Shown: in pieces, positions 13,132-38,900 of the stretch
Numbering within the stretch: position 1 is the first letter of the stretch
Layout: every line of letters begins with the position of its first letter
NCBI GenBank assembly: GCA_902500715.1
Contig: CABVRO010000010.1
Coordinates: forward strand, 1 to 51,839
DNA: 51,839 nucleotides
Direction: 5' to 3'
Source: an uncultured Nitrospira sp.
GTDB lineage: Bacteria > Nitrospirota > Nitrospiria > Nitrospirales > Nitrospiraceae
Program-made: the position numbers and the translations under genes
The notes under the pieces: generated by a model
What the model was told of the DNA's origin: nothing
The model's input: the letters and a program-made list of their open reading frames with translations, nothing else
Databases searched by the model: none

Positions 13132-13147
13132 TGGCACGACGGTTGCT
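13132..13147 (+). promoter_or_regulatory. Sigma-54 (-24/-12) promoter
   Basis: The sequence TGGCACG-ACGG-TTGCT matches the RpoN consensus TGGCACG-N4-TTGCW at every defined position, with GG and GC separated by 10 bases. Transcription would begin near 13158, giving a ~24-base leader with a GGAGGA ribosome site (13170-13175) before the ATG at 13182. A sigma-54-dependent activator (PrsR-like) is encoded at 27.9 kb. Confidence 0.85.
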
Positions 13148-27851: not shown

Positions 27852-29276
27852 ATGACAGCCGGAAAAGTCCTCGTCGTAGAAGATGACGAAGGGGTTCAAA
27901 CGCTCCTGAAGGCTACCTTGGAGCCTGAATTTGAGATCCTGATCACGTCGGACCCCGACAAGGCGCTCTGCCTTCTCAACCGCGAGTCACCAGATCTGGT
28001 TTTACTCGATTTGGGTCTCCCGCCCTCCCCACAGGACCACAAGATAGGAATCCAACTGCTCAGGAAGATGAGAAGAGCGACCCCTGGCACACAAGTGATT
28101 GTCTGTACCGGCTTGTCCGGATACGAGGCGGCAAGCCACGCCATCAGTCTTGGCGCCCACGATGTCATCTATAAACCCTTTTGCATCCAAGCCCTTCAAG
28201 CGGCGGTGCGGAGAGTGTGTTGGATAGCGCGCATCAATCGGCTGCAGGGCCTGGATGCACCGAAGGATGAGTTCCTGGAAGAAATGGTCGGAACCAGTCC
28301 CGCCATGCGCCAGGTCTTCGATATGATCCGTAAGGTCGGCACGACCGACATGCCCGTGCTGATCACGGGAGAAACGGGGACGGGCAAGGAACTGACCGCC
28401 AAAGCGATTCACGAACGGAGCCGGCGAAATAAGGGCCCGTTTGTGCCGATCAATTGCGGCGCCATTCCTGAAACATTGCTGGAATCCGAACTCTACGGAC
28501 ATGAACGAGGAGCCTTTACCGGAGCCCTGCAGCTGAAGAAAGGCAAGTTCGAAGCGGCGGACGGCGGGACATTGTTTCTTGATGAAGTCGGCGACCTGCT
28601 TCCATCACTCCAAGTCAAATTGCTTCGTTTTCTGCAGGAGGGAACATTCGAACGGGTCGGCGGTCAGCAGGCTCTACGGCTCGACCTTCGTGTGATTACG
28701 GCGACCAACGTCGACCTACAGGCCGCCATCGCCAAGAACGTATTTCGAGAAGATCTCTATTACCGGCTGGGCATGCTGCACATTCATCTCCCCCCGCTCA
28801 GGGAACGTGGCGAAGACACGCTGCTCATGGCCACGACCTTTCTTAAGAGAGCCGCCTTCTCTGCCGGAAAGCGGGTCCGAGGCTATACCCGAGAGGCCGT
28901 CGAAACCATCCAATCCTACCATTGGCCCGGCAATGTGCGGGAGTTAAGCAATAGGGTGAGGCGAGCCACCGTCATGGCGGAAGGTCCGGAGATTACGCCT
29001 CAGGACCTGGGGCTGACCTGCGAGGCCTCGCCTTCGGCAAACAGCCTCGATTCCTTGAGAACCGCACATCGCCGGATTGAAATGGAGTTGATCATCAAGG
29101 CAATGAGTGTACATCACGGGAATTTGAGCCGCGCAGCGCAAGAGCTCGAAGTGAGTCGCTCGACGTTATATCGAAAAATTCAAGCATTCAGTCTCGAACA
29201 GTTCGTCCTCTCAGCCAACCTTACCCATTACACAGCCCCCTCACTCACGAAGTCCTCGGCAGAACGCCTTCAGTAG
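27852..29276 (+). CDS. Sigma-54-dependent response regulator, PrsR-like (NtrC family)
   Basis: This 474-residue activator opens sigma-54 promoters using ATP. The receiver domain (1-125) has the acidic pair in VVEDDEG and phospho-acceptor Asp53 in [12 protein letters not shown]. The LGLPPxP stretch after the Asp is a mark of the PEP-CTERM-box regulators (PrsR) that control exopolysaccharide and PEP-CTERM genes. The AAA+ domain has Walker A GETGTGKE (173-180), the sigma-54-contact loop GAFTGA (220-225) and [12 protein letters not shown] as Walker B. A Fis-type helix-turn-helix ([21 protein letters not shown]) ends the protein. No partner kinase (PrsK) lies nearby. Its position upstream of the Fap-like operon suggests it controls that operon; the strong sigma-54 promoter at 13.1 kb is another candidate target. 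Confidence 0.9.
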
Positions 29277-29971: not shown

Positions 29972-30388
29972 ATGTCCACTGGTGCTCGAAACGAGAAGAA
30001 GAAGAATGAGAAGCAGAAAGACCGCTCGAAAAACGAGCAGCCCACGAGTCAGCCCGCTCCTGCGGTGCAGCAGATTCACGTCGTGTTATGGGATGAACCC
30101 CCTAAACGCGACCCACAGGAAAACGACACCGATCTTGAGCCCGACCTTCTTCGAGCGAACCCCATTGGGGCCAGCTATGTCACAGCATCGTCATCGGAAC
30201 ATGCAGACCCTTTTGGCCAATCAGCCGAATGCGCCCGATTCACGTTCAGGCTGATGGGATTGAATCTCTCGAGGGACGCGGTCTCGAGGACTCAAGTGCA
30301 GGACGAGCCATGTGGAAAGGAGGTGACGAGCCGTCGCAGTCCGAGTGTCAGTCAGTATGGTTCGACAGTGATTCTCTTTAACCGCTAA
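29972..30388 (+). CDS. Hypothetical, low-confidence open frame (138 residues)
   Basis: The frame reads MSTGARNEKKKNEKQKDRS, a Lys/Glu/Asn-rich start, then QQIHVVLWDEPPKRDP and an acidic middle, without a recognisable domain or signal peptide. It has no clear ribosome site. An overlapping frame from ATG 29844 (MKLSRQALQHVLW...) is also possible. Codon use in the first half is acceptable, but the second half looks random. If real, it would be the first gene of the Fap-like operon, ending 19 bases before the next start. Confidence 0.3.
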   Translation: MSTGARNEKKKNEKQKDRSKNEQPTSQPAPAVQQIHVVLWDEPPKRDPQENDTDLEPDLLRANPIGASYVTASSSEHADPFGQSAECARFTFRLMGLNLSRDAVSRTQVQDEPCGKEVTSRRSPSVSQYGSTVILFNR

Positions 30389-30407
30389 TGATTGTGAGGA
30401 GGGTGTC

Positions 30408-31475
30408 ATGAAGAAAGTGATGATTACGACGGCAGCGTTGGCATTGGCCCTCGGCCTTGCGCCCCACTCGGGCGCTCAAACAGCCGACAACAGCAGCGCC
30501 GCGGCATCGGACCAATCGAAGGCCCTGGTGAAGACAAAGGTCGATGACAGCTATAACGACATCACAAAGACTAAGGACAGCTACAACGAGTCTACGAAGA
30601 CCATTACCAAAACGGACGAAAGCTCGAAGGTTAAAGATAGTTATAACGAGAAGACAGTCTATAAGGGAAAAGCTGAGAACGATCACTCCCCCTTTGGAGC
30701 GGCGGCCAACAACTACTCGACGGCCACTAGCTCGCTGACTGCGAATCTGACCAACGCATACAACCACAGCAAAGTAGTGAATATGACCAAACTCGATGGA
30801 TATGTGTCAGGTAACAAGATCTCCCACATCGGCAATGTCGGTGGGGACGCCCTGGCCTTCAAATCTGGGAACGGCGACCGTGGCGGAGATGGCGGCTACG
30901 CTGCGGTTAAGGCCCGGTCTGGCGATGCCATGGGTGGCGACGGCAATAAGGGTGGCTATGCCAGAGCCAATGGTGGCTATGCCGACGGCGGTAATGGTGG
31001 TAAGGCCAAAGCTGGTGATGGTGGCTATGCCAAGGGTGGTCCCGGCGGCACTTCCAACGGTAATAACGGTGGCCAATCCAACGGTGGCGCTAATCATGAC
31101 AATACCGCCCATGATGCCGAATGGACAGCTGGGAACGGCGGCCAGGCACAAGGTGGGAACGGTGGCCAAGCTAACGGTGGAAACGGTGGCCAGGCCAACG
31201 GTGGAAACGGCGGAACGGCCACCGGTGGAGCCGGCGGTGCAGGTGGCTCCGCGACCAGCGGAAACGCGACCGCGACTGCTAATGGTGGAAACGGTGGAAA
31301 CGGCGGTAATGGAGGTAGCGTGAACGGTGGAAGCGCAGGAACCTTCAACGCCTCCAACGCGATCTCTGGGATGAGCGGCGCGGCCGGAGTCACCGTCGCC
31401 ATGCAGAACACCGGAATGGCCAGTCTCCAGCAGATCGGCGTCACCACGATGGCGAACGTCACGATCGGTCATTAA
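30408..31475 (+). CDS. Exported Gly/Asn-rich repeat protein, candidate fibre (Fap-like) subunit
   Basis: The 355-residue protein has a signal peptide (MKKVMITTAALALALGLAPHSGAQ). A charged segment repeats DSYN(D/E)xTKT at residues 47, 57 and 77. Residues ~142-312 are a low-complexity Gly/Asn/Ala region of GGNGGQANGGNGG and GGYAxANGGY units. A final Gln/Asn motif (GVTVAMQNTG...LQQIGVTTMANVT) matches the ends of the two small exported proteins of the cluster. There is no cysteine after the signal. It resembles amyloid or matrix proteins such as FapC/FapB in plan, although the repeats differ. GAGGAGG precedes the ATG. A 14-base-pair hairpin after the stop probably raises its expression over the downstream genes. 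Confidence 0.7.
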   Translation: MKKVMITTAALALALGLAPHSGAQTADNSSAAASDQSKALVKTKVDDSYNDITKTKDSYNESTKTITKTDESSKVKDSYNEKTVYKGKAENDHSPFGAAANNYSTATSSLTANLTNAYNHSKVVNMTKLDGYVSGNKISHIGNVGGDALAFKSGNGDRGGDGGYAAVKARSGDAMGGDGNKGGYARANGGYADGGNGGKAKAGDGGYAKGGPGGTSNGNNGGQSNGGANHDNTAHDAEWTAGNGGQAQGGNGGQANGGNGGQANGGNGGTATGGAGGAGGSATSGNATATANGGNGGNGGNGGSVNGGSAGTFNASNAISGMSGAAGVTVAMQNTGMASLQQIGVTTMANVTIGH

Positions 31476-31482
31476 GCCACGT

Positions 31483-31514
31483 CTGGCTGGAGGAGCACCG
31501 GCTCCTCCAGCCAG
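31483..31514 (+). terminator. Perfect 14-base-pair hairpin after the Gly-rich gene
   Basis: CTGGCTGGAGGAGC (31483-31496), loop ACCG, GCTCCTCCAGCCAG (31501-31514). It lies 8 bases after the Gly-rich gene and 33 before the next start. No T-run follows, so it likely stabilises the upstream message or partly terminates transcription rather than ending the operon. Confidence 0.7.
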
Positions 31515-31546
31515 AGGGAGCCATCTACGACAAGAGCGAGGGCATC

Positions 31547-31891
31547 ATGCGTATTTATTTCTCAACAGTGATGACGGTCCTTGGGCTCTGCCTGGGCATG
31601 GCTCACGCCGGTTCGCCGGACAAGCCCGCGATGACATCCTGGGGCAACCCGATTCCTGCGGCCCAGTTGGACACTCAACGTGGAGGAACGGACCCCGGTC
31701 CGATCACGATCAACGCGAACATGCTGAACGCCAAGTTATTCGATAATGCGGCCACAGACAACGTGACCGGCAATAATACTGTGACCGGCGGCGCGTTTGC
31801 CGGATCGAGCGGTCTTGCGACAGTCATCCAAAATTCCGGGAATAACGTGATCATTCAGAACGGCACCGTTCTGAACTTGACACTGAAGTAG
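31547..31891 (+). CDS. Small exported protein with double-glycine site, Fap-like cluster
   Basis: This 114-residue protein has a signal peptide (MRIYFSTVMTVLGLCLGMAHA) and, after ~25 residues, the sequence AAQLDTQRGG, which is like a C39-type double-glycine site at residues 46-47 (Ile at -12, Leu at -7, Gly-Gly at -2/-1). The rest is Asn/Thr/Gly-rich (NANMLNAKLFDNAATDN, GNNTVTGGAF) and ends in TVIQNSGNNVIIQNGTVLN, a Gln/Asn motif shared with its neighbours. The peptidase gene begins 6 bases after the stop. I infer it is a minor secreted fibre or nucleator-type subunit trimmed by that peptidase. It has no close family I can name. Confidence 0.7.
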   Translation: MRIYFSTVMTVLGLCLGMAHAGSPDKPAMTSWGNPIPAAQLDTQRGGTDPGPITINANMLNAKLFDNAATDNVTGNNTVTGGAFAGSSGLATVIQNSGNNVIIQNGTVLNLTLK

Positions 31892-31897
31892 ACATCG

Positions 31898-32590
31898 ATG
31901 CCGACGAAACATCCTATCGGGTATGTGCTGGCCTTGCTGCTCTCCGCCTCTACCGGAGCGACGGCGGCCACGGTGGAGGTCACTCCTGGAGTCGGGAGTC
32001 GCATGTTGCTCCAAGTCTGGAGTATGCGCGAACTCAAAGTCCGATCAGTCATCCTCCAGAAATATGACTACAGCTGCGGCTCGGCCGCCGTCGCCACACT
32101 CCTGACTTACCACTATGGGAATGCCATCACTGAAGAAGTGGCCTTCCGCGCGATGTTCGACCACGGCGACCAGCAAAAAATCCAACGCGAAGGCTTTTCG
32201 CTCCTGGACATGAAGCGGTTTTTGGAGGCGCAGGGCTATCGCGCAGATGGGTTTGAGGTCTCTCTGGGCGAGGTGGCCAAAGCCGGCATTCCGGCGATCG
32301 TGCTGATCGTGGATAACGGCTATCACCATTTTGTGGTGATCAAAGGCATGCGGGGCAATAAGGTCCTGCTCGGCGACCCGGCAATCGGCATGCGGGTGGT
32401 CGCGCGCGAGGAATTTGAAGCCGCATGGCCGAACCGCATTGTTTTTGTCATCCATGAGGCCCCGACACGAGCCGAATTCAATACCGTCCGCGATTGGAGC
32501 GTCCGTCCGAGATCGCCTCTCGGACAACCGCTCAGCGCCGACACCTTGAACAGTGTGATTCTTTTTCGTCCCGGCGGGAGGGATTTCTAA
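31898..32590 (+). CDS. Periplasmic C39-family peptidase (FapD-like)
   Basis: This 230-residue cysteine peptidase has a signal peptide (YVLALLLSASTGATAA). The papain-like triad is visible: Cys60 in DYSCGSAAVATLLTYHYG, His143/144 in GYHHFVVIKG and Asp160 in VLLGDPAIGM; Gln54 in VILQKYDYSC can serve as the oxyanion-hole glutamine. There is no ABC transporter domain, unlike bacteriocin exporters, so it acts alone in the periplasm, as FapD does in the Fap amyloid systems. Its neighbours on both sides carry double-glycine sites that fit as substrates. Its stop overlaps the next start (TAATG), meaning tight coupling. Confidence 0.85.
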   Translation: MPTKHPIGYVLALLLSASTGATAATVEVTPGVGSRMLLQVWSMRELKVRSVILQKYDYSCGSAAVATLLTYHYGNAITEEVAFRAMFDHGDQQKIQREGFSLLDMKRFLEAQGYRADGFEVSLGEVAKAGIPAIVLIVDNGYHHFVVIKGMRGNKVLLGDPAIGMRVVAREEFEAAWPNRIVFVIHEAPTRAEFNTVRDWSVRPRSPLGQPLSADTLNSVILFRPGGRDF

Positions 32591-33099
32591 TGAGCTGCCC
32601 ATTCATAAGATCGCTTCGCCACATGACGACCCTGTTCATGCTCACCCTGTGCGTGCAATCCATGACTTCAGCCATAGCATCCGAGAGAAACGAGTATTTT
32701 ATGCAACGGATACCGGTGAGCGAAGTGGTATTGGACCACATGCGAGGAGGGTTTCAAAGCAGCCCGAACAGTCCGATCCTCTCATTCGGGATCGAACGGA
32801 CTGTGCATCTGAATGGTAAACTCATCAGTTCAACGGTGCTCAATATCCCGGACTTGATGCAACTCGCGGGTAATTCGAGTCGTCCGTTCACCCTCGTTCA
32901 GACCGGAAGCGGCAACTCATTGACGACTGCCGCCGCCGCATTGCCCGCGTTCATGACCGTCTTACAAAACTCTCTCGACAATCAAAACATTCAGAATCAA
33001 ACCGTCATGAACGCCACGGCGGGAGCGCTTGGCTGGGCCCGGTCGCTCGCACTGGGCAACGCGCTCTCTGAGGCCACCATCGGCGCTATCCGGCATTAA
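32590..33099 (+). CDS. Small exported protein with double-glycine site, Fap-like cluster
   Basis: This 169-residue protein has a signal peptide ending near residue 31 (MTTLFMLTLCVQSMTSAIA) and, just after it, IPVSEVVLDHMRGGFQ, a double-glycine-type site at residues 53-54 with Val -12, Leu -7 and Met -4. The mature part starts FQSSPNSPILSFGIERTVHLNGK and holds Thr/Asn-rich strands. The C-terminal motif TVLQNSLDNQNIQNQTVMN matches that of the 114-residue neighbour and, more loosely, the Gly-rich protein. It is coupled to both neighbours by TAATG overlaps. Probably a secreted accessory of the fibre system (FapE- or FapA-like in role, though I see no clear homology). Confidence 0.72.
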   Translation: MSCPFIRSLRHMTTLFMLTLCVQSMTSAIASERNEYFMQRIPVSEVVLDHMRGGFQSSPNSPILSFGIERTVHLNGKLISSTVLNIPDLMQLAGNSSRPFTLVQTGSGNSLTTAAAALPAFMTVLQNSLDNQNIQNQTVMNATAGALGWARSLALGNALSEATIGAIRH

Positions 33100-34475
33100 T
33101 GATGCGCGTCTCGTGCAAACCGGCAGGTCGTCCGGCGGACAAGAGCGGTCGAGCCATTCCCACCTCAACAGCATTGACCATCGCGATTCGGTCGACACAA
33201 CCCATTGAGGTGTCGAGGGCTGTCGGAACAACTCGTAAAAGCGTTTGGATTGCCTTCGCTCTGGGGCTCGCGTTGAGCCTGACGACCGCTCCGATCGGCG
33301 CGGCCCCGCCCGTGCTCGTCAACATACATGCGAATCCGTCACATGTAGACAGGTGGAAGAACCTTCTAGGTCCGAGGTCTCAATGGTCGACCGACCCACC
33401 CCGGTATCTTGCCGCAAACAATCAGACGGTCGGACCTGAGATGTCCGAGCAGGATGGGCCCGCGGCACAAGATCAGGCTGCGGGTGATCCGAAATCGAAA
33501 TCTGCCAGCCCGGTGGGGGTCGCTCCGGAGACTCCACAAGAAGAACCACTCCCTCCATGGATGGTTCGGACATTCGATTTGCCGGGGGCCGGGGTGCTGA
33601 CCCCGAAGGGCACACTCATCGTGGAGCCGTATCTGCAATATGCCCATCTCAGCAGTAATCGAGTCACGCTGACCGGATTTACGATCGTCCCGGCCCTCAC
33701 GATCGGCCTCATCAACATCCAAGGAGTGAGTCGGGACATTTATACCGCAGCACTTGTAGGGCGCTACGGCCTCACGAATCGACTGGAGATCGAAGTGAGA
33801 GTGCCCTATCTCTATCGGGAGGACTCGATTACGCAACGACCTCTTGCCACGCCTTCTACAGCTGATACCGTGTCTACCGCCAACGGTTCTGGTCTCGGAG
33901 ACATTGAAACAACAGGCCGGTATCAAATAAACAAAGGTGGGGCCGACGAACCGTATTTCGTGGCCTTCACGCGATTCAAGAGCACGACCGGGAAAGGTCC
34001 GTTCGAAGTACCGACAGACCCGATCACGGGGTTCCAAACAGAATTACCAACGGGGTCCGGCTTTTACATTCTCCAACCGGGCTTTACCGCCCTCTTTCCC
34101 AGCGATCCGGTCGTCCTTTTCAGCAGTATCAGCTACATCTGGAATATGTCGCGTAACCTCGGAGGCCAGATCGGACGCATCAATCCAGGAAGTGGCGGCA
34201 ACTTTAATGTGGGTCTCGGCATTTCGTTGAATGAAAAGCTGTCATTGACGCTGGGGTACGACCATACCGTCTTTGAGAGACCCACGTCTGCCTCCAACCT
34301 GCTCCTCACGACGACGCCGCAGATCACTCAAATCGGGGTCTTGCTCCTTGGAGGCGCGTATCGATTGAGCGATCGCAGCTTTGTGAATTTCGTCGTCGGG
34401 GTCGGCGCGACTCGGGAAGCGCCGGATCTCCAAGTGACGGTTCGGATCCCGACCGCAATCTTTATGGGGAATTAG
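33099..34475 (+). CDS. Outer-membrane beta-barrel transporter (FapF/MetA-pathway-like)
   Basis: The 458-residue protein has a hydrophobic export segment at residues ~48-70 (SVWIAFALGLALSLTTAPIGA), preceded by a long basic N-region; a GTG at 33210 would give a standard signal peptide, so the start is uncertain. A polar, Pro-rich linker (residues ~90-155) is followed by ~300 residues of alternating amphipathic strands (GTLIVEPYLQYAHLSSN, DIYTAALVGRYGLTNRLEIEVRVPYLY, FILQPGFTALF and others), as in barrels of the phenol-degradation MetA-pathway family. FapF, the Fap exporter, has this plan. It probably carries the neighbouring proteins through the outer membrane. It ends VRIPTAIFMGN rather than with the usual terminal Phe. 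Confidence 0.75.
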   Translation: MMRVSCKPAGRPADKSGRAIPTSTALTIAIRSTQPIEVSRAVGTTRKSVWIAFALGLALSLTTAPIGAAPPVLVNIHANPSHVDRWKNLLGPRSQWSTDPPRYLAANNQTVGPEMSEQDGPAAQDQAAGDPKSKSASPVGVAPETPQEEPLPPWMVRTFDLPGAGVLTPKGTLIVEPYLQYAHLSSNRVTLTGFTIVPALTIGLINIQGVSRDIYTAALVGRYGLTNRLEIEVRVPYLYREDSITQRPLATPSTADTVSTANGSGLGDIETTGRYQINKGGADEPYFVAFTRFKSTTGKGPFEVPTDPITGFQTELPTGSGFYILQPGFTALFPSDPVVLFSSISYIWNMSRNLGGQIGRINPGSGGNFNVGLGISLNEKLSLTLGYDHTVFERPTSASNLLLTTTPQITQIGVLLLGGAYRLSDRSFVNFVVGVGATREAPDLQVTVRIPTAIFMGN

Positions 34476-36383: not shown

Positions 36384-36502
36384 TGACCTTCCCACCGAAA
36401 ACTAGACCATTGGCTTGGAAGTGCCTCTGTGCTGAGATACGCCCCACAGGAGGGGCCAAGACACGGAAACGGCATACCGAGGAACAAATCATTGGCGTGC
36501 CA
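36384..36502 (+). mobile_element. Remnant of an IS3-family insertion sequence (left end and transposase OrfA start)
   Basis: TGACCTTCCCACCGAAAACTAGACCA (from 36384) looks like the terminal repeat of IS3/IS407-type elements. About 60 bases on, after a GGAGGGG ribosome-site-like run, the reading frame at 36461-36502 gives TRKRHTEEQIIGV, the N-terminus of OrfA (usual MxKxRxTEEQIIGVL), with ACA at the expected ATG. The sequence then departs from the family, so only ~120 bases remain. No right end was found. Confidence 0.6.
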
Positions 36503-36620
36503 TATATGCAGGGCTCAGGGCGCGCGTTCCGCGAGCAAAGAGCCTGGGTCCGCTGCCTCGCCCCTCCCCTCTGAAAGGATTCAGATTCTCGCCCCATACC
36601 CTCCTGTGAAGGGAGGACAC

Positions 36621-38900
36621 ATGGAGCGCATCGAGGGCAAATCCCCATCGAACCCATCGACGAACCGGCGCGATCCCCGCCTCTATCAAATCGCCAGCCT
36701 GGGAACGTTGCTGGCGTATGGTCTCTTCTGGCTCCACTTCGACCTGAGCCTCTGGCAGATCGCCGTCACGATTGGAACAGCGGTGCTCACTCAATATGCC
36801 GGAACCCGCCTCGCCAAGCTTCCGTTCTTCGATCCCAAGAGCGCGCTCATCTCGTCGCTCTCCCTCTGCATCCTCCTCCGCTGCGATCACCTCGCGATCG
36901 CAGCATTGGCCTCAGTCGTCGCCATCGGCAGCAAGTTCGTCTTCCGCTGGCAAGACAAACATCTGTTCAATCCGACGAATCTCGCCCTCGCCGTCATGCT
37001 CGATACCGGGCTAGGTTGGATCTCGCCGGGACAATGGGGGCAGGTCGCCTGGTTCGGCTTTCTCATTACTTGCCTCGGTAGCCTCGTGGTTACACGCGCC
37101 GCGCGGGCGGATGTGACGTGCGCCTTTCTCGCCGTCTACGTCGGCTTCTTCTTCGCTCGAGCGCTCTGGCTCGGCGATCCGCTGGCGATTCCGTTCCACC
37201 AGGTCGAAAGCGGAGCACTCCTCATCTTTGCCTTCTTCATGATCTCCGATCCCAAAACCACACCGGACTCCCTCGCCGGGCGAATGGTCTATGCCCTCTG
37301 CGTTGCCCTCGCCGCGCTTTACGTCCAGTTCGGATTGTTTCGCCCGAACGGATCGCTGTGGGGACTGATCGCCTGCGCGCCACTTGTACCACTACTCGAT
37401 CATCTGTTTCCCGGTACTCGTTACGCTTGGACCAGGACATCGACTGGTAGCGCGTCACCAAACTCGTCGTTACACATCGATGCCCAACCGTCAGCCGGTA
37501 GTCATTCCCAGTCTGTCTCCGTTTCTCTCGTGTCACTAACCAAGGAGGTTCTTATGAGACGTACCATCGTGCCTTCATTGTTATTCGCCCTCGGCCTGCT
37601 CGCATGGAGCGGCGAGGCCTCGGCCTTTTGCGGTTTCTACGTCGGCAAGGCCGACACCAGACTGTTCAACAAGGCCTCTGAAGTGGCCATCGCCCGCCAC
37701 GACAACAAAACCGTGATCACCATGGCGAACGATTTCAAAGGAGATGTGACGGAGTTTGCGCTGGTGGTTCCGGTGCCGACCGTCCTGGAGAAGGAGCAGA
37801 TTCATGTCGGCGATCCGGCGGTACTGAAACATCTGGCCGACTACTCGGCGCCGAGACTGGTCGAATACTTCGACGAGAATCCCTGCCTGCGTTCTGAACT
37901 CATGGAGCGCCGGAGCATGGATGCGATGAAGAGCATGGTCCCGGCCGCAGCGCCGGCCCGTGAGCGCGACAAGGCCTTAGGGGTCACGGTCGAAGCCCAA
38001 TACACGGTCGGCGAATACGACATCCTGATCCTCTCGGCCAAAGAAAGTAACGGGCTCGAAACCTGGCTGGTCGAGAACGACTACCGCATCCCGAAGGGAG
38101 CGTCGGCCGTCCTCCATAGCTATCTCAAACAGGGCATGAAATTTTTCGTCGCCAAGGTGAATCTGGGCGAGCAGACGAAGCTCGGCTTGACGCACCTCCG
38201 ACCGCTTCAGATTGCATTCGAATCGCCGAAGTTCATGTTGCCGATCCGGCTCGGCACGGTGAATGCCGACGGCGCACAGGAGCTGTTTATCTATTTCCTG
38301 ACGAAGCAGGGCCGGGTAGAGACGACAAACTACCGGACCGTGCGACTCCCTGAGGCACAGGAAGTTCCGCTCTACGTGAAAAACAAGTTCGGCGACTTCT
38401 ATCGCGATCTGTTCACGCAGCAGGTGAACCGGGAGAGCGAACGCGGCCTGTTCATGGAGTATGCCTGGGACATGAACTGGTGCGACCCCTGCGCGGCCGA
38501 TCCGCTCACTGCCGACGAACTCCGCGGTTTGGGCGTGTTCTGGCAGGATGGAACCGGACGGACGGGCAAGAGCCTGCCGATGGCGCAGAACGTGTTCCTT
38601 ACTCGGCTGCACCTGCGCTACGACGCCGCGCATTTTCCTGAAGACCTGATGTTCCAGGAGACCTCGGATCGCAGTAATTTCCAGGCGCGTTATATCCTAC
38701 GCCATCCCTGGACTGGAACCGATGAATGCGCCGCCGCCACGGCATACCGGCATCAACTGCGGGAGCGATATGAGCGGGAGGCACATACACTGGCGTCACT
38801 CACAGGCTGGAATATCGGTGACATCCGCAAGACGATGAACATCGCCTCGCCGACACCCGGCGAAGAGAAAAAATGGTATCAGCGCTTGTGGACGAACTAG
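36621..38900 (+). CDS. RnfD/NqrB-like membrane protein fused in frame to a DUF2330 protein
   Basis: A single open frame of 759 residues reads through two units. Residues ~1-275 form an RnfD/NqrB-like membrane protein with about nine helices, LFNPTNLALAVML and FFMISDPKTTP being family signatures, of the type that takes part in membrane electron transfer. No FMN-binding SGAT motif was found. A ~35-residue low-complexity stretch (SPNSSLHIDAQPSAG) follows, then the start of a signal peptide (MRRTIVPSLLFALG) and a DUF2330 domain. A ribosome site (AAGGAGG, 37542-37548) sits in front of that internal ATG. The normal RnfD stop seems missing; a stop exists in another frame at 37448. I think two proteins are made, or the fusion is recent. 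GGAGG precedes ATG 36621. Confidence 0.75.
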   Translation: MERIEGKSPSNPSTNRRDPRLYQIASLGTLLAYGLFWLHFDLSLWQIAVTIGTAVLTQYAGTRLAKLPFFDPKSALISSLSLCILLRCDHLAIAALASVVAIGSKFVFRWQDKHLFNPTNLALAVMLDTGLGWISPGQWGQVAWFGFLITCLGSLVVTRAARADVTCAFLAVYVGFFFARALWLGDPLAIPFHQVESGALLIFAFFMISDPKTTPDSLAGRMVYALCVALAALYVQFGLFRPNGSLWGLIACAPLVPLLDHLFPGTRYAWTRTSTGSASPNSSLHIDAQPSAGSHSQSVSVSLVSLTKEVLMRRTIVPSLLFALGLLAWSGEASAFCGFYVGKADTRLFNKASEVAIARHDNKTVITMANDFKGDVTEFALVVPVPTVLEKEQIHVGDPAVLKHLADYSAPRLVEYFDENPCLRSELMERRSMDAMKSMVPAAAPARERDKALGVTVEAQYTVGEYDILILSAKESNGLETWLVENDYRIPKGASAVLHSYLKQGMKFFVAKVNLGEQTKLGLTHLRPLQIAFESPKFMLPIRLGTVNADGAQELFIYFLTKQGRVETTNYRTVRLPEAQEVPLYVKNKFGDFYRDLFTQQVNRESERGLFMEYAWDMNWCDPCAADPLTADELRGLGVFWQDGTGRTGKSLPMAQNVFLTRLHLRYDAAHFPEDLMFQETSDRSNFQARYILRHPWTGTDECAAATAYRHQLRERYEREAHTLASLTGWNIGDIRKTMNIASPTPGEEKKWYQRLWTN
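37542..37556 (+). promoter_or_regulatory. Internal ribosome site and start of the DUF2330 protein
   Basis: AAGGAGG (37542-37548), 5-base spacer, ATG (37554-37556), directly before a signal peptide. It lies inside the open frame that runs on from the RnfD-like part. Confidence 0.7.
37554..38900 (+). CDS. DUF2330 exported protein (internal start)
   Basis: From the internal ATG the protein has 448 residues with a signal peptide (MRRTIVPSLLFALGLLAWSGEASA). Then comes FCGFYVGKADTRLFNKAS, the DUF2330 entry segment with its conserved cysteine, and TVITMANDFKGDVTEFALVVPVP, PRLVEYFDENPC and a Cys pair in WDMNWCDPCAADP. A C-terminal segment HPWTGTDECAAATAY adds another cysteine. DUF2330 proteins are predicted exported proteins of unknown function found with membrane electron-transfer or sulfur genes. 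No C-terminal anchor is present. The same frame continues upstream into the RnfD-like gene, so the same stretch is also listed as a fusion. Confidence 0.75.
   Translation: MRRTIVPSLLFALGLLAWSGEASAFCGFYVGKADTRLFNKASEVAIARHDNKTVITMANDFKGDVTEFALVVPVPTVLEKEQIHVGDPAVLKHLADYSAPRLVEYFDENPCLRSELMERRSMDAMKSMVPAAAPARERDKALGVTVEAQYTVGEYDILILSAKESNGLETWLVENDYRIPKGASAVLHSYLKQGMKFFVAKVNLGEQTKLGLTHLRPLQIAFESPKFMLPIRLGTVNADGAQELFIYFLTKQGRVETTNYRTVRLPEAQEVPLYVKNKFGDFYRDLFTQQVNRESERGLFMEYAWDMNWCDPCAADPLTADELRGLGVFWQDGTGRTGKSLPMAQNVFLTRLHLRYDAAHFPEDLMFQETSDRSNFQARYILRHPWTGTDECAAATAYRHQLRERYEREAHTLASLTGWNIGDIRKTMNIASPTPGEEKKWYQRLWTN

Follow-up and report, generated by a model that had tools for sequence, protein, structure and literature searches.

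A Fap-like secretion operon in Nitrospira and Proteobacteria with predicted double-glycine leader substrates

What does a bacteriocin-type C39 peptidase do in an operon that resembles those for amyloid secretion? The question is raised by five consecutive plus-strand open reading frames (ORFs), G2, G3, G4, G5 and G6, at 30408-34475 of a 51,839-nucleotide stretch of DNA from an uncultured Nitrospira sp. (contig CABVRO010000010.1 of assembly GCA_902500715.1; the whole stretch is hereafter the window). We are highly confident that these genes form a conserved Fap-like secretion operon, akin to the operons for Fap amyloid secretion yet distinct from them, and, as far as sequences alone can tell, the operon probably exports fibre-related proteins through a FapF-type barrel once two of these proteins have been processed at a double-glycine site by its C39 peptidase. 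The operon is real, conserved, Fap-like and mechanistically informative, and it is not confined to Nitrospira.

FapD is described as acting in the periplasm, with a Cys38 that is needed for FapC secretion and a target that 'remains unclear'; a canonical C39 sequence is absent from the Fap proteins, FapE contains GG and GA motifs that hint at processing, and it alone underwent complete N-terminal processing, with no peptides found in its first ~70 residues (PMC5557850). An earlier proposal has FapD freeing the coiled coil of FapF (PMC5557850). A 2018 review counts the FapD substrate as undetermined and reports FapD-FapF pairs in five further phyla (PMC6173800), and a 2013 survey limits Fap to Proteobacteria and places FapD and FapF in what are likely larger families (PMC3792158). 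Our literature search, in which few subscription journals and preprints were covered and absence is not proven, returned no paper on Fap in Nitrospira, on a FapD cut site or on Fil. Because FapE as a candidate substrate has already been published (PMC5557850), what is new here is the place of the cut and the leader code.

The operon, its peptidase and its barrel

All features of the operon lie on the plus strand. G2 (30408..31475; 355 amino acids) is a seemingly exported protein rich in glycine and asparagine (22% Gly, 11% Asn) and the predicted main fibre subunit, FapC-like in role; it is followed by G3 (31547..31891; 114 amino acids), a small, seemingly exported protein that is the hallmark of the branch described below and a predicted peptidase substrate and minor subunit. 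G4 (31898..32590; 230 amino acids) is a FapD-like C39 cysteine peptidase with an apparent Sec signal, G5 (32590..33099; 169 amino acids) a FapE-like, seemingly exported protein and the other predicted substrate, and G6 (33099..34475; 458 amino acids) a FapF-like outer-membrane barrel whose N-terminal part is without a coiled coil. Signal peptides were assigned by eye throughout, and the start codon of G6 is uncertain, as its signal peptide is preceded by a long N-terminal stretch. Six bases separate G3 from G4, and TAATG overlaps link G4 to G5 and G5 to G6. An initial annotation of the window had described five consecutive plus-strand genes with this spacing and these overlaps, all of which are present; it had also placed the DNA in a Nitrospira-type genome, in agreement with the listed G5 relatives that bear an organism name (45-84% identity), all of them Nitrospira sp.

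G4 matches the Pfam family Peptidase_C39 (E 1.1e-22) and the NCBIfam FapD model NF058616 (E 3.8e-40, 137.5 bits), which bears out its annotation as a C39 peptidase related to FapD, and its nearest solved relatives are double-glycine proteases, 6mpz first. Gln54, Cys60, His144 and Asp160 are among the invariant columns of a ten-row alignment (A5) and align with 6mpz, and the codon of the predicted nucleophile, Cys60, lies at 32075..32077. G4 is thus a FapD relative with a predicted catalytic Gln-Cys-His-Asp set.

The barrel assignment likewise stands, by sequence and by fold. G6 matches the NCBIfam FapF model NF058560 (E 6.5e-32, 110.8 bits), and its sole convincing sequence matches in the PDB by phmmer are four FapF sequences (5o67, E 5.2e-26). 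An AlphaFold2 model, with a mean predicted local distance difference test score (pLDDT) of 70.2 and values of at least 80 in most blocks of the barrel part, predicts a beta-barrel domain at residues about 170-455 (33606..34463). The structural comparison with FapF that the annotation had suggested returned FapF 5o65_B as the best Foldseek match of this model (E 1.2e-17; template modelling (TM) score 0.78 on target).

Double-glycine leaders in G3 and G5

Behind its presumed signal peptide G5 carries the leader PVSEVVLDHMRGG-F, with V at -12, L at -7, M at -4 and GG at -2/-1, and G3 carries NPIPAAQLDTQRGG-T, with I at -12, L at -7 and GG at -2/-1, but Gln at -4. The RGG motifs occupy residues 45-47 of G3 (31679..31687) and residues 52-54 of G5 (32743..32751), and the cut is predicted after the second Gly of each. 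In LahT, leader residues -4, -7 and -12 lie in a hydrophobic groove; the ComA consensus is Leu(-12)-x3-Glu(-8)-Leu(-7), and the LahT paper found the Glu at -8 to be dispensable (PMC6363468). PCAT1 has a similar groove and a leader helix from -10 to -4 (PMC6959990), and in our model of G3, a poor one, the sole helix outside the signal peptide covers residues 38-44, which correspond to -10 to -4 (block means 88 and 66).

The motif is kept among relatives of both proteins: LxxxRGG occurs in 120 of 120 listed G3 relatives (of 216 found) and [LM]xxxRGG[FL] in 120 of 120 listed G5 relatives (of 290 found), and RGGFQ is invariant in all 32 aligned G5 sequences, drawn from the 121 formed by the window's protein and the 120 listed. 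Classic FapE relatives have RG[RK] in 19 of 20 cases, and in the remaining one the start of the gene model falls within the motif. Across the 121 peptidase loci compared, which fall into 78 proteobacterial, 13 Nitrospira, seven class-sample, 16 classic and seven more distant (N2) loci, as set out in the next section, [LIVMF]xx(x)[RT]G[GRK] is found somewhere in all 102 E genes picked by hidden Markov model (HMM) and not by motif; when the pattern was sought in the first 200 residues only, 8 of 64 proteobacterial-set E proteins were missed, and the final count is without this limit. E-like genes without an HMM match, in 14 of the 78 proteobacterial and 5 of the 7 N2 loci, make up the 19 that stand outside the 102-gene set.

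For a position profile we took as the site the first RG[GRK] of each protein after residue 30 and counted as hydrophobic any of LIVMF; 3 of 16 classic FapE (TGK) and 22 of 98 G3 went uncounted for lack of RG[GRK]. Position -7 is hydrophobic in 100% of 13 classic FapE, 95% of 84 E proteins of the G3-bearing branch and 97% of 76 G3, position -12 in 92%, 86% and 84%, and position -4 in 77%, 70% and 36%, respectively, as against 18-21% at -12, -7 and -4 in a control of 1390 sites taken from the remaining ORFs of these loci, spurious ORFs included. Both -12 and -7 are hydrophobic in 12/13 classic FapE, 72/84 branch E and 64/76 G3, compared with 87/1390 in the control, and a second control of 26 RG[GRK] sites inside the peptidases gave 0% at -12, 8% at -7 and 62% at -4. 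Two of the 78 G3 'motif' matches (L077, L142) are fortuitous and lie close to starts that were called wrongly. When sites were chosen by score, -1 was Gly in 83/84 branch E and Arg or Lys in 16/16 classic E, and -3 in the 16 classic E was Arg in 13 and Thr in three. We conclude that G3 and G5 carry what reads as a bacteriocin-style C39 leader behind apparent Sec signals, and we consider it very likely that G4 would cut this leader after RGG; the annotation had overlooked these double-glycine leaders.

G5 itself appears to be a remote relative of FapE. An HMM of 14 classic FapE matches 4 of the 13 Nitrospira G5 proteins (L021, the best at 2.9e-5, L019, L071 and L067), as well as the E protein of L139 of the G3-bearing branch (3.4e-9) and that of the N2 locus L057 (6e-11), with E-values that refer to a small local set of downstream ORFs, and an HMM of the G5 family built from Nitrospira proteins matches proteobacterial proteins at up to 1.4e-33. 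The NCBIfam FapE model gave no match to G5.

Distribution and relation to classic Fap operons

Of 29 genomes of the genus, 5 encode full-length G4, and one further match is a fragment of another C39; within the order, G5 was found in 13 of 235 genomes, and these 13 are also the only ones in which G4 exceeds 400 bits. G4 lies directly beside G5 in each of the 13 by coordinates. G3, G5-like and barrel genes (by HMM) and the C-terminal motif of G2 accompany G4 in 13/13 loci, so the gene set is not a product of chance, and the occurrence of peptidase and barrel apart from the repeat proteins, which the annotation had named as evidence against its own reading, was not observed in these loci. Seven other loci of the order, which we call N2, encode FapD-like peptidases that are more distant, scoring 90-130 bits, and in 7/7 a FapF-like barrel is close by.

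A scan of genome contigs with a ten-peptidase alignment yielded at least 80 loci, two from Nitrospira (L072 and L073, whose contigs have the same lengths as those of G110 and G114 and which were left out of the proteobacterial set) and 78 others. These 78 belong by title mostly to Cupriavidus, Massilia, Burkholderia, Dyella, Luteibacter and their kin and include L139 (Geobacteraceae) and L149 (Deltaproteobacteria); their peptidases are 45-54% identical to G4, and the same gene set appears in those loci that were read gene by gene and in the HMM searches, with the barrel at times on the other strand. The annotation had proposed a branch outside Proteobacteria, a placement that fails, since of the 80 loci that the scan retained 78 belong to Proteobacteria as broadly defined in the past.

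A tree of 121 peptidases unites the 78 proteobacterial, 13 Nitrospira and seven class-sample rows in one 98-row clade (100/99), within which the 13 Nitrospira rows group together (100/99), and sets the 16 classic FapD rows apart as a separate clade (100/97), outside which the window peptidase falls. The G3 HMM, which is independent of the tree, picks out exactly the 98 loci of this clade (78/78 proteobacterial, 13/13 Nitrospira and 7/23 class-sample or classic) and matches 0/16 classic and 0/7 N2 loci. The tree is rooted at its midpoint and gives no firm branching order of the 98-row clade, classic FapD and N2: two N2 rows join the 98-row clade at a fork with 93/55, and the tree program warned that five N2 rows and the classic rows were possibly drawn together falsely. 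It gives no direction of transfer, the nearest proteobacterial row to Nitrospira, L078, joining with only 85/87.

The branch and classic Fap can share a genome. When the genomes behind 38 of the 80 loci, picked by choice, were searched with the FapD model, all 38 matched and none rose above the cut-off (0/38), so that the proteobacterial operons are passed over by the NCBIfam cut-offs; a second, higher-scoring peptidase (192-254 bits) accompanies the branch peptidase in 8 of the 38. The eight highest loci of this search were fetched, and 5 of the 8 second-peptidase loci resemble fapBCDEF gene by gene, some with fapA. In the class of genome G248, which is also that of Dyella, 77 of 369 sampled genomes match the FapD model, none above the cut-off, and the 15 loci fetched from these matches (most of the best-scoring and some from the middle, a non-random choice) comprise eight classic loci and seven of the G3-bearing branch by tree and G3. 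Fap repeats lie upstream of the peptidase in 16/16 classic loci, among them L219, whose NCBIfam matches to FapC (E 6.1e-53), FapB (6.9e-29) and FapE (6.6e-33) are all below the cut-offs.

Several features lie beside the operon. The interval given by the annotation begins at 29972, a position that opens not the glycine-rich gene but a sixth small ORF, G1 (29972..30388, plus strand; 138 amino acids), with a VVLWDE motif and no visible signal peptide. G1 has no Pfam or NCBIfam match and may be a remnant. The motif [VIL][VIL]LWDE occurs upstream of the peptidase in 9/13 Nitrospira, 1/7 N2 and 4/16 classic loci, and in 0/78 proteobacterial and 0/7 other loci. In classic and N2 cases (L219, L220, L221, L225, L057) a leader-like stretch, for example LNDDQLGQVRG or LSPEELATIAG, precedes V[IV]LWDE, and for this reason the V[IV]LWDE protein may be a further peptidase substrate; the Nitrospira V[IV]LWDE proteins have no visible signal peptide and may be remnants. 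Upstream on the same strand lies a sigma-54 response regulator of the PEP-CTERM type (27852..29276; Sigma54_activat E 3.2e-70; TIGR02915 486.3 bits against a cut-off of 502.6), which by its sequence may regulate the operon. Homologues (E <= 1e-20) occur within the locus stretch in 12/13 Nitrospira (the window included), 3/7 N2, 20/23 class-sample or classic and 33/78 proteobacterial loci. The sigma-54 promoter pattern shows no excess in the window (15 matches against 23.6 expected); one perfect match, TGGCACNNNNNTTGCW, stands at 13132-13147, far from the operon. In another genome, the regulator at L058 2102-3520, 81% identical to that of the window, precedes an N2-type Fap-like operon, as though one export system had been swapped for another downstream of a common regulator.

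Some further observations concern other loci and other parts of the window. The distant FapD-like loci L059-L063 of the order have exported-looking neighbours whose leader-like motifs end differently, namely LSDDELDQVTAAG, LTDAELDDITAAG, LTDDQLDTVAGG, MNDSELAAIEGQ and LSASEMANITGE, and the peptidases of L059 and L061 bear leader-like motifs in their own C-terminal extension. In genome G016, which has no G5 match, a cut-off FapD-like peptidase (L009/L022) has in its vicinity a small protein that begins like a signal peptide and carries LSDTELATVEGG. At 36429-38900 the window holds a long ORF, possibly two genes read as one frame, which by eye resembles a membrane part joined to an exported part.

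Fibre, mechanism and alternatives

A conserved C-terminal motif of G2 (...GVTVAMQNTGMASLQQIGVTTMANVTIG, 31323..31472) matches by profile the C-terminus of G3 (SGLATVIQNSGNNVIIQNGTVLNLTLK, 31808..31888), and a QN[ST] motif is common to the G2, G3 and G5 C-terminal families (hhalign E 2.1e-7 for G2-G3 and 2.4e-7 for G5-G3); the G2 C-terminal family was found in 80/121 loci after four search rounds, with the count still growing. The FapB and FapC models NF058557 and NF058558 match none of the window's proteins and do match a classic locus. As FapB/FapC-type repeats were not found and the NCBIfam cut-offs were missed, we call the system Fap-like and not Fap. The annotation's remark that the sequences are not obviously alignable to FapB/C therefore holds for those models and repeats and fails for G5, apparently a remote FapE relative, and the search with Fap families that it had proposed recovers FapD and FapF and leaves the FapB, FapC and FapE models unmatched; as a whole, its Fap-like reading, peptidase and barrel stand, and its taxonomic placement does not. 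Given the shared C-terminal motif, the peptidase and the barrel, a surface fibre of G2, G3 and G5 is likely on sequence grounds, and amyloid is plausible, a prediction that we favour only slightly over its opposite.

We propose that the Sec pathway would deliver all five proteins to the periplasm or the outer membrane, where G4 would bind the short leader helix of G3 and G5 through -12, -7 and -4, by analogy with LahT, PCAT1 and ComA, and would cut after RGG. The trimmed G3 and G5, together with G2, would exit through G6, with its predicted FapF-like fold, and the QN[ST] motif would join the three into one surface fibre, with G2 as the main subunit and G3 and G5 as nucleating or anchoring subunits. 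Cleavage may thereby serve as a licence, in that only processed minor subunits would permit export or nucleation, an idea that fits the published need of active FapD for FapC secretion (PMC5557850). We put at about even the broader joint claim that Fap-type systems share one code, a bacteriocin-style leader behind a Sec signal, read by a free periplasmic C39 peptidase and licensing FapE, G3, G5 and other leader-bearing operon proteins, and that the branch in Nitrospira and Proteobacteria would be a second amyloid-type secretion system, as yet without a name, that keeps the true GG.

A number of results weigh against this proposal. Both G4 and G6 miss the NCBIfam equivalog cut-offs (137.5 against 330 bits for FapD and 110.8 against 700 bits for FapF), although classic-type peptidases of 192-284 bits likewise miss 330. 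G2 and G5 have no Pfam or NCBIfam family at E <= 1, G3 has no NCBIfam family and a single, chance-level Pfam match (E 0.17), and the model of G3 is poor and largely unfolded (mean pLDDT 61.6, predicted TM score 0.24). The classic Fap repeat matches the G3 C-terminus weakly, in register (hhalign E 2.3e-4), and fails against those of G2 (0.097) and G5 (0.21). The classic FapE HMM misses nine of the 13 Nitrospira G5 proteins, the window's own among them, and seed-to-seed hhalign of G5 with FapE, from small seed sets, reaches a probability of only 78.7, aligning the RG site and an FG[IV]E block. In the leader, Glu(-8) of ComA is kept in 12/16 classic but 6/84 branch E, the -4 position is hydrophobic in only about a third of G3 and is Gln in the window's, and 18/98 G3 are without Arg at -3 (13 Ser, three Thr, one Cys, one Asn), with a site choice that favours the motif. 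The Arg or Lys at -1 in 16/16 classic FapE would be expected to fit poorly into the narrow cleft described for PCAT1 (PMC6959990). The published FapE peptide gap of ~70 residues extends beyond the predicted site, which maps near position 40 of the FapE model, and the same data show FapA-D unprocessed (PMC5557850).

Some of these points bear on classic Fap more than on the branch. With Arg or Lys before the presumed cut, unusual for the C39 type, the extension of the cut site to classic Fap is less sure, and the branch with its true GG offers a cleaner case than classic FapE. The RG site falls near position 40 of the FapE profile (residue 38 of L219 is profile position 22, with RG at 55-56), so that our prediction agrees with the published FapE data on a lost N-terminus and differs on the exact point. 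The cut could not be placed on Pseudomonas FapE: the classic FapE search gave 20 proteins, the named ones from Halomonas, Aidingimonas and Methylohalomonas, and an order search around G404 gave four genomes, two with FapE and none over the cut-off.

Several other explanations share parts of this evidence. The leader and RGG of G3 and G5 resemble those of bacteriocin precursors, and the solved structures closest to G4 are double-glycine peptidases, as would be expected if the operon made bacteriocins or signalling peptides whose cores, freed by the C39 peptidase, left through the barrel to act on other cells. We think this improbable: G4 is not fused to an ATP-binding cassette (ABC) transporter, a FapF-type barrel lies near the peptidase in 115/121 loci (six have no barrel match), 67 residues follow RGG in G3 and 115 in G5, the latter protein seems distantly related to FapE, and G2, G3 and G5 have a C-terminal motif in common. 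Less likely still is an uptake channel of the COG4313 or FadL kind, with peptidase and small proteins merely regulating its gating. Foldseek does find COG4313 4rl8 (E 6.0e-11) and FadL (E 8.2e-9) for G6, but FapF is the best match by both sequence and fold, and in Nitrospira and Proteobacteria alike the barrel and peptidase genes are accompanied by two proteins that bear leaders.

A closer contender, though still rather unlikely, is that the operon makes a non-amyloid fibre or pilus on the cell surface, like Fil in Acinetobacter: the exporter logic would be the same, and the product a fimbria or an adhesive coat that lacks cross-beta structure. Among the NCBIfam models, FilB and FilC rank second for G4 and G6 (E 9.8e-37, 126.8 bits, and E 5.4e-15, 55.6 bits), and the glycine-rich G2 is without FapC repeats; FapD nevertheless outscores FilB (137.5 vs 126.8 bits) and FapF outscores FilC (110.8 vs 55.6 bits), and G5 has FapE features. 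Alternatively, the peptidase might act mainly on the barrel, freeing the FapF coiled coil, and not on the small proteins, an idea published in PMC5557850. The pattern [LIVM]x(2-4)RG[GRA] occurs in the barrel N-terminal part in 36/72 proteobacterial-set, 5/16 classic, 3/7 N2 and 1/7 class-sample loci, a pattern count without control; in a barrel alignment (A6), most rows show by eye a coiled-coil-like stretch, several ending in L...RG[GRA], and none was seen in the window's G6, L139 or L149. The count in the proteobacterial set fits the published idea that FapD may cut FapF as well (PMC5557850). We doubt that the barrel is the main substrate, as the pattern is found in 0/13 Nitrospira barrels and the window's has no coiled coil, yet the peptidase is kept, and G3 and G5 retain their sites in 120/120 listed relatives each.

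If the preferred reading, trimming of G3 and G5 before export through the barrel, is right, the comparison of the branch with classic Fap would explain the presence of a bacteriocin-type peptidase in an amyloid operon, and the named proteins, residue numbers and bond make the question of the FapD-type substrate directly testable. Nitrospira are key nitrifiers, to which a likely matrix-fibre system would be added.

Among known systems, the FapD-FapF pairs reported from five further phyla likewise place the pair outside Proteobacteria, although the passage available names neither small substrates nor a leader (PMC6173800). The putative pilus system FilA-F of Acinetobacter offers in FilB and FilC detectable relatives of G4 and G6 that come second to FapD and FapF in score, in a comparison made by peptidase and barrel alone. 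The peptidase-containing ABC transporters LahT, PCAT1 and ComA share with the branch the C39 family, the catalytic residues and a leader code of -12, -7, (-4) and GG; in contrast, G4 is free and by prediction periplasmic, its substrates seem to have a Sec signal before the leader, and no ABC transporter is found among the five genes. Closest is the Pseudomonas fapABCDEF system, with a FapD-like C39 peptidase, a FapE-like protein right behind it and a FapF-like barrel in common, and sigma-54 regulators in the neighbourhood of both. The branch differs from it in having its own peptidase clade, the extra small protein G3, no recognisable FapB or FapC repeats, and RGG in its E protein where classic FapE has [RT]G[RK]; the window's genes miss the NCBIfam cut-offs and its barrel is without the coiled coil, and in 8 of the 38 genomes checked the two systems stand side by side.

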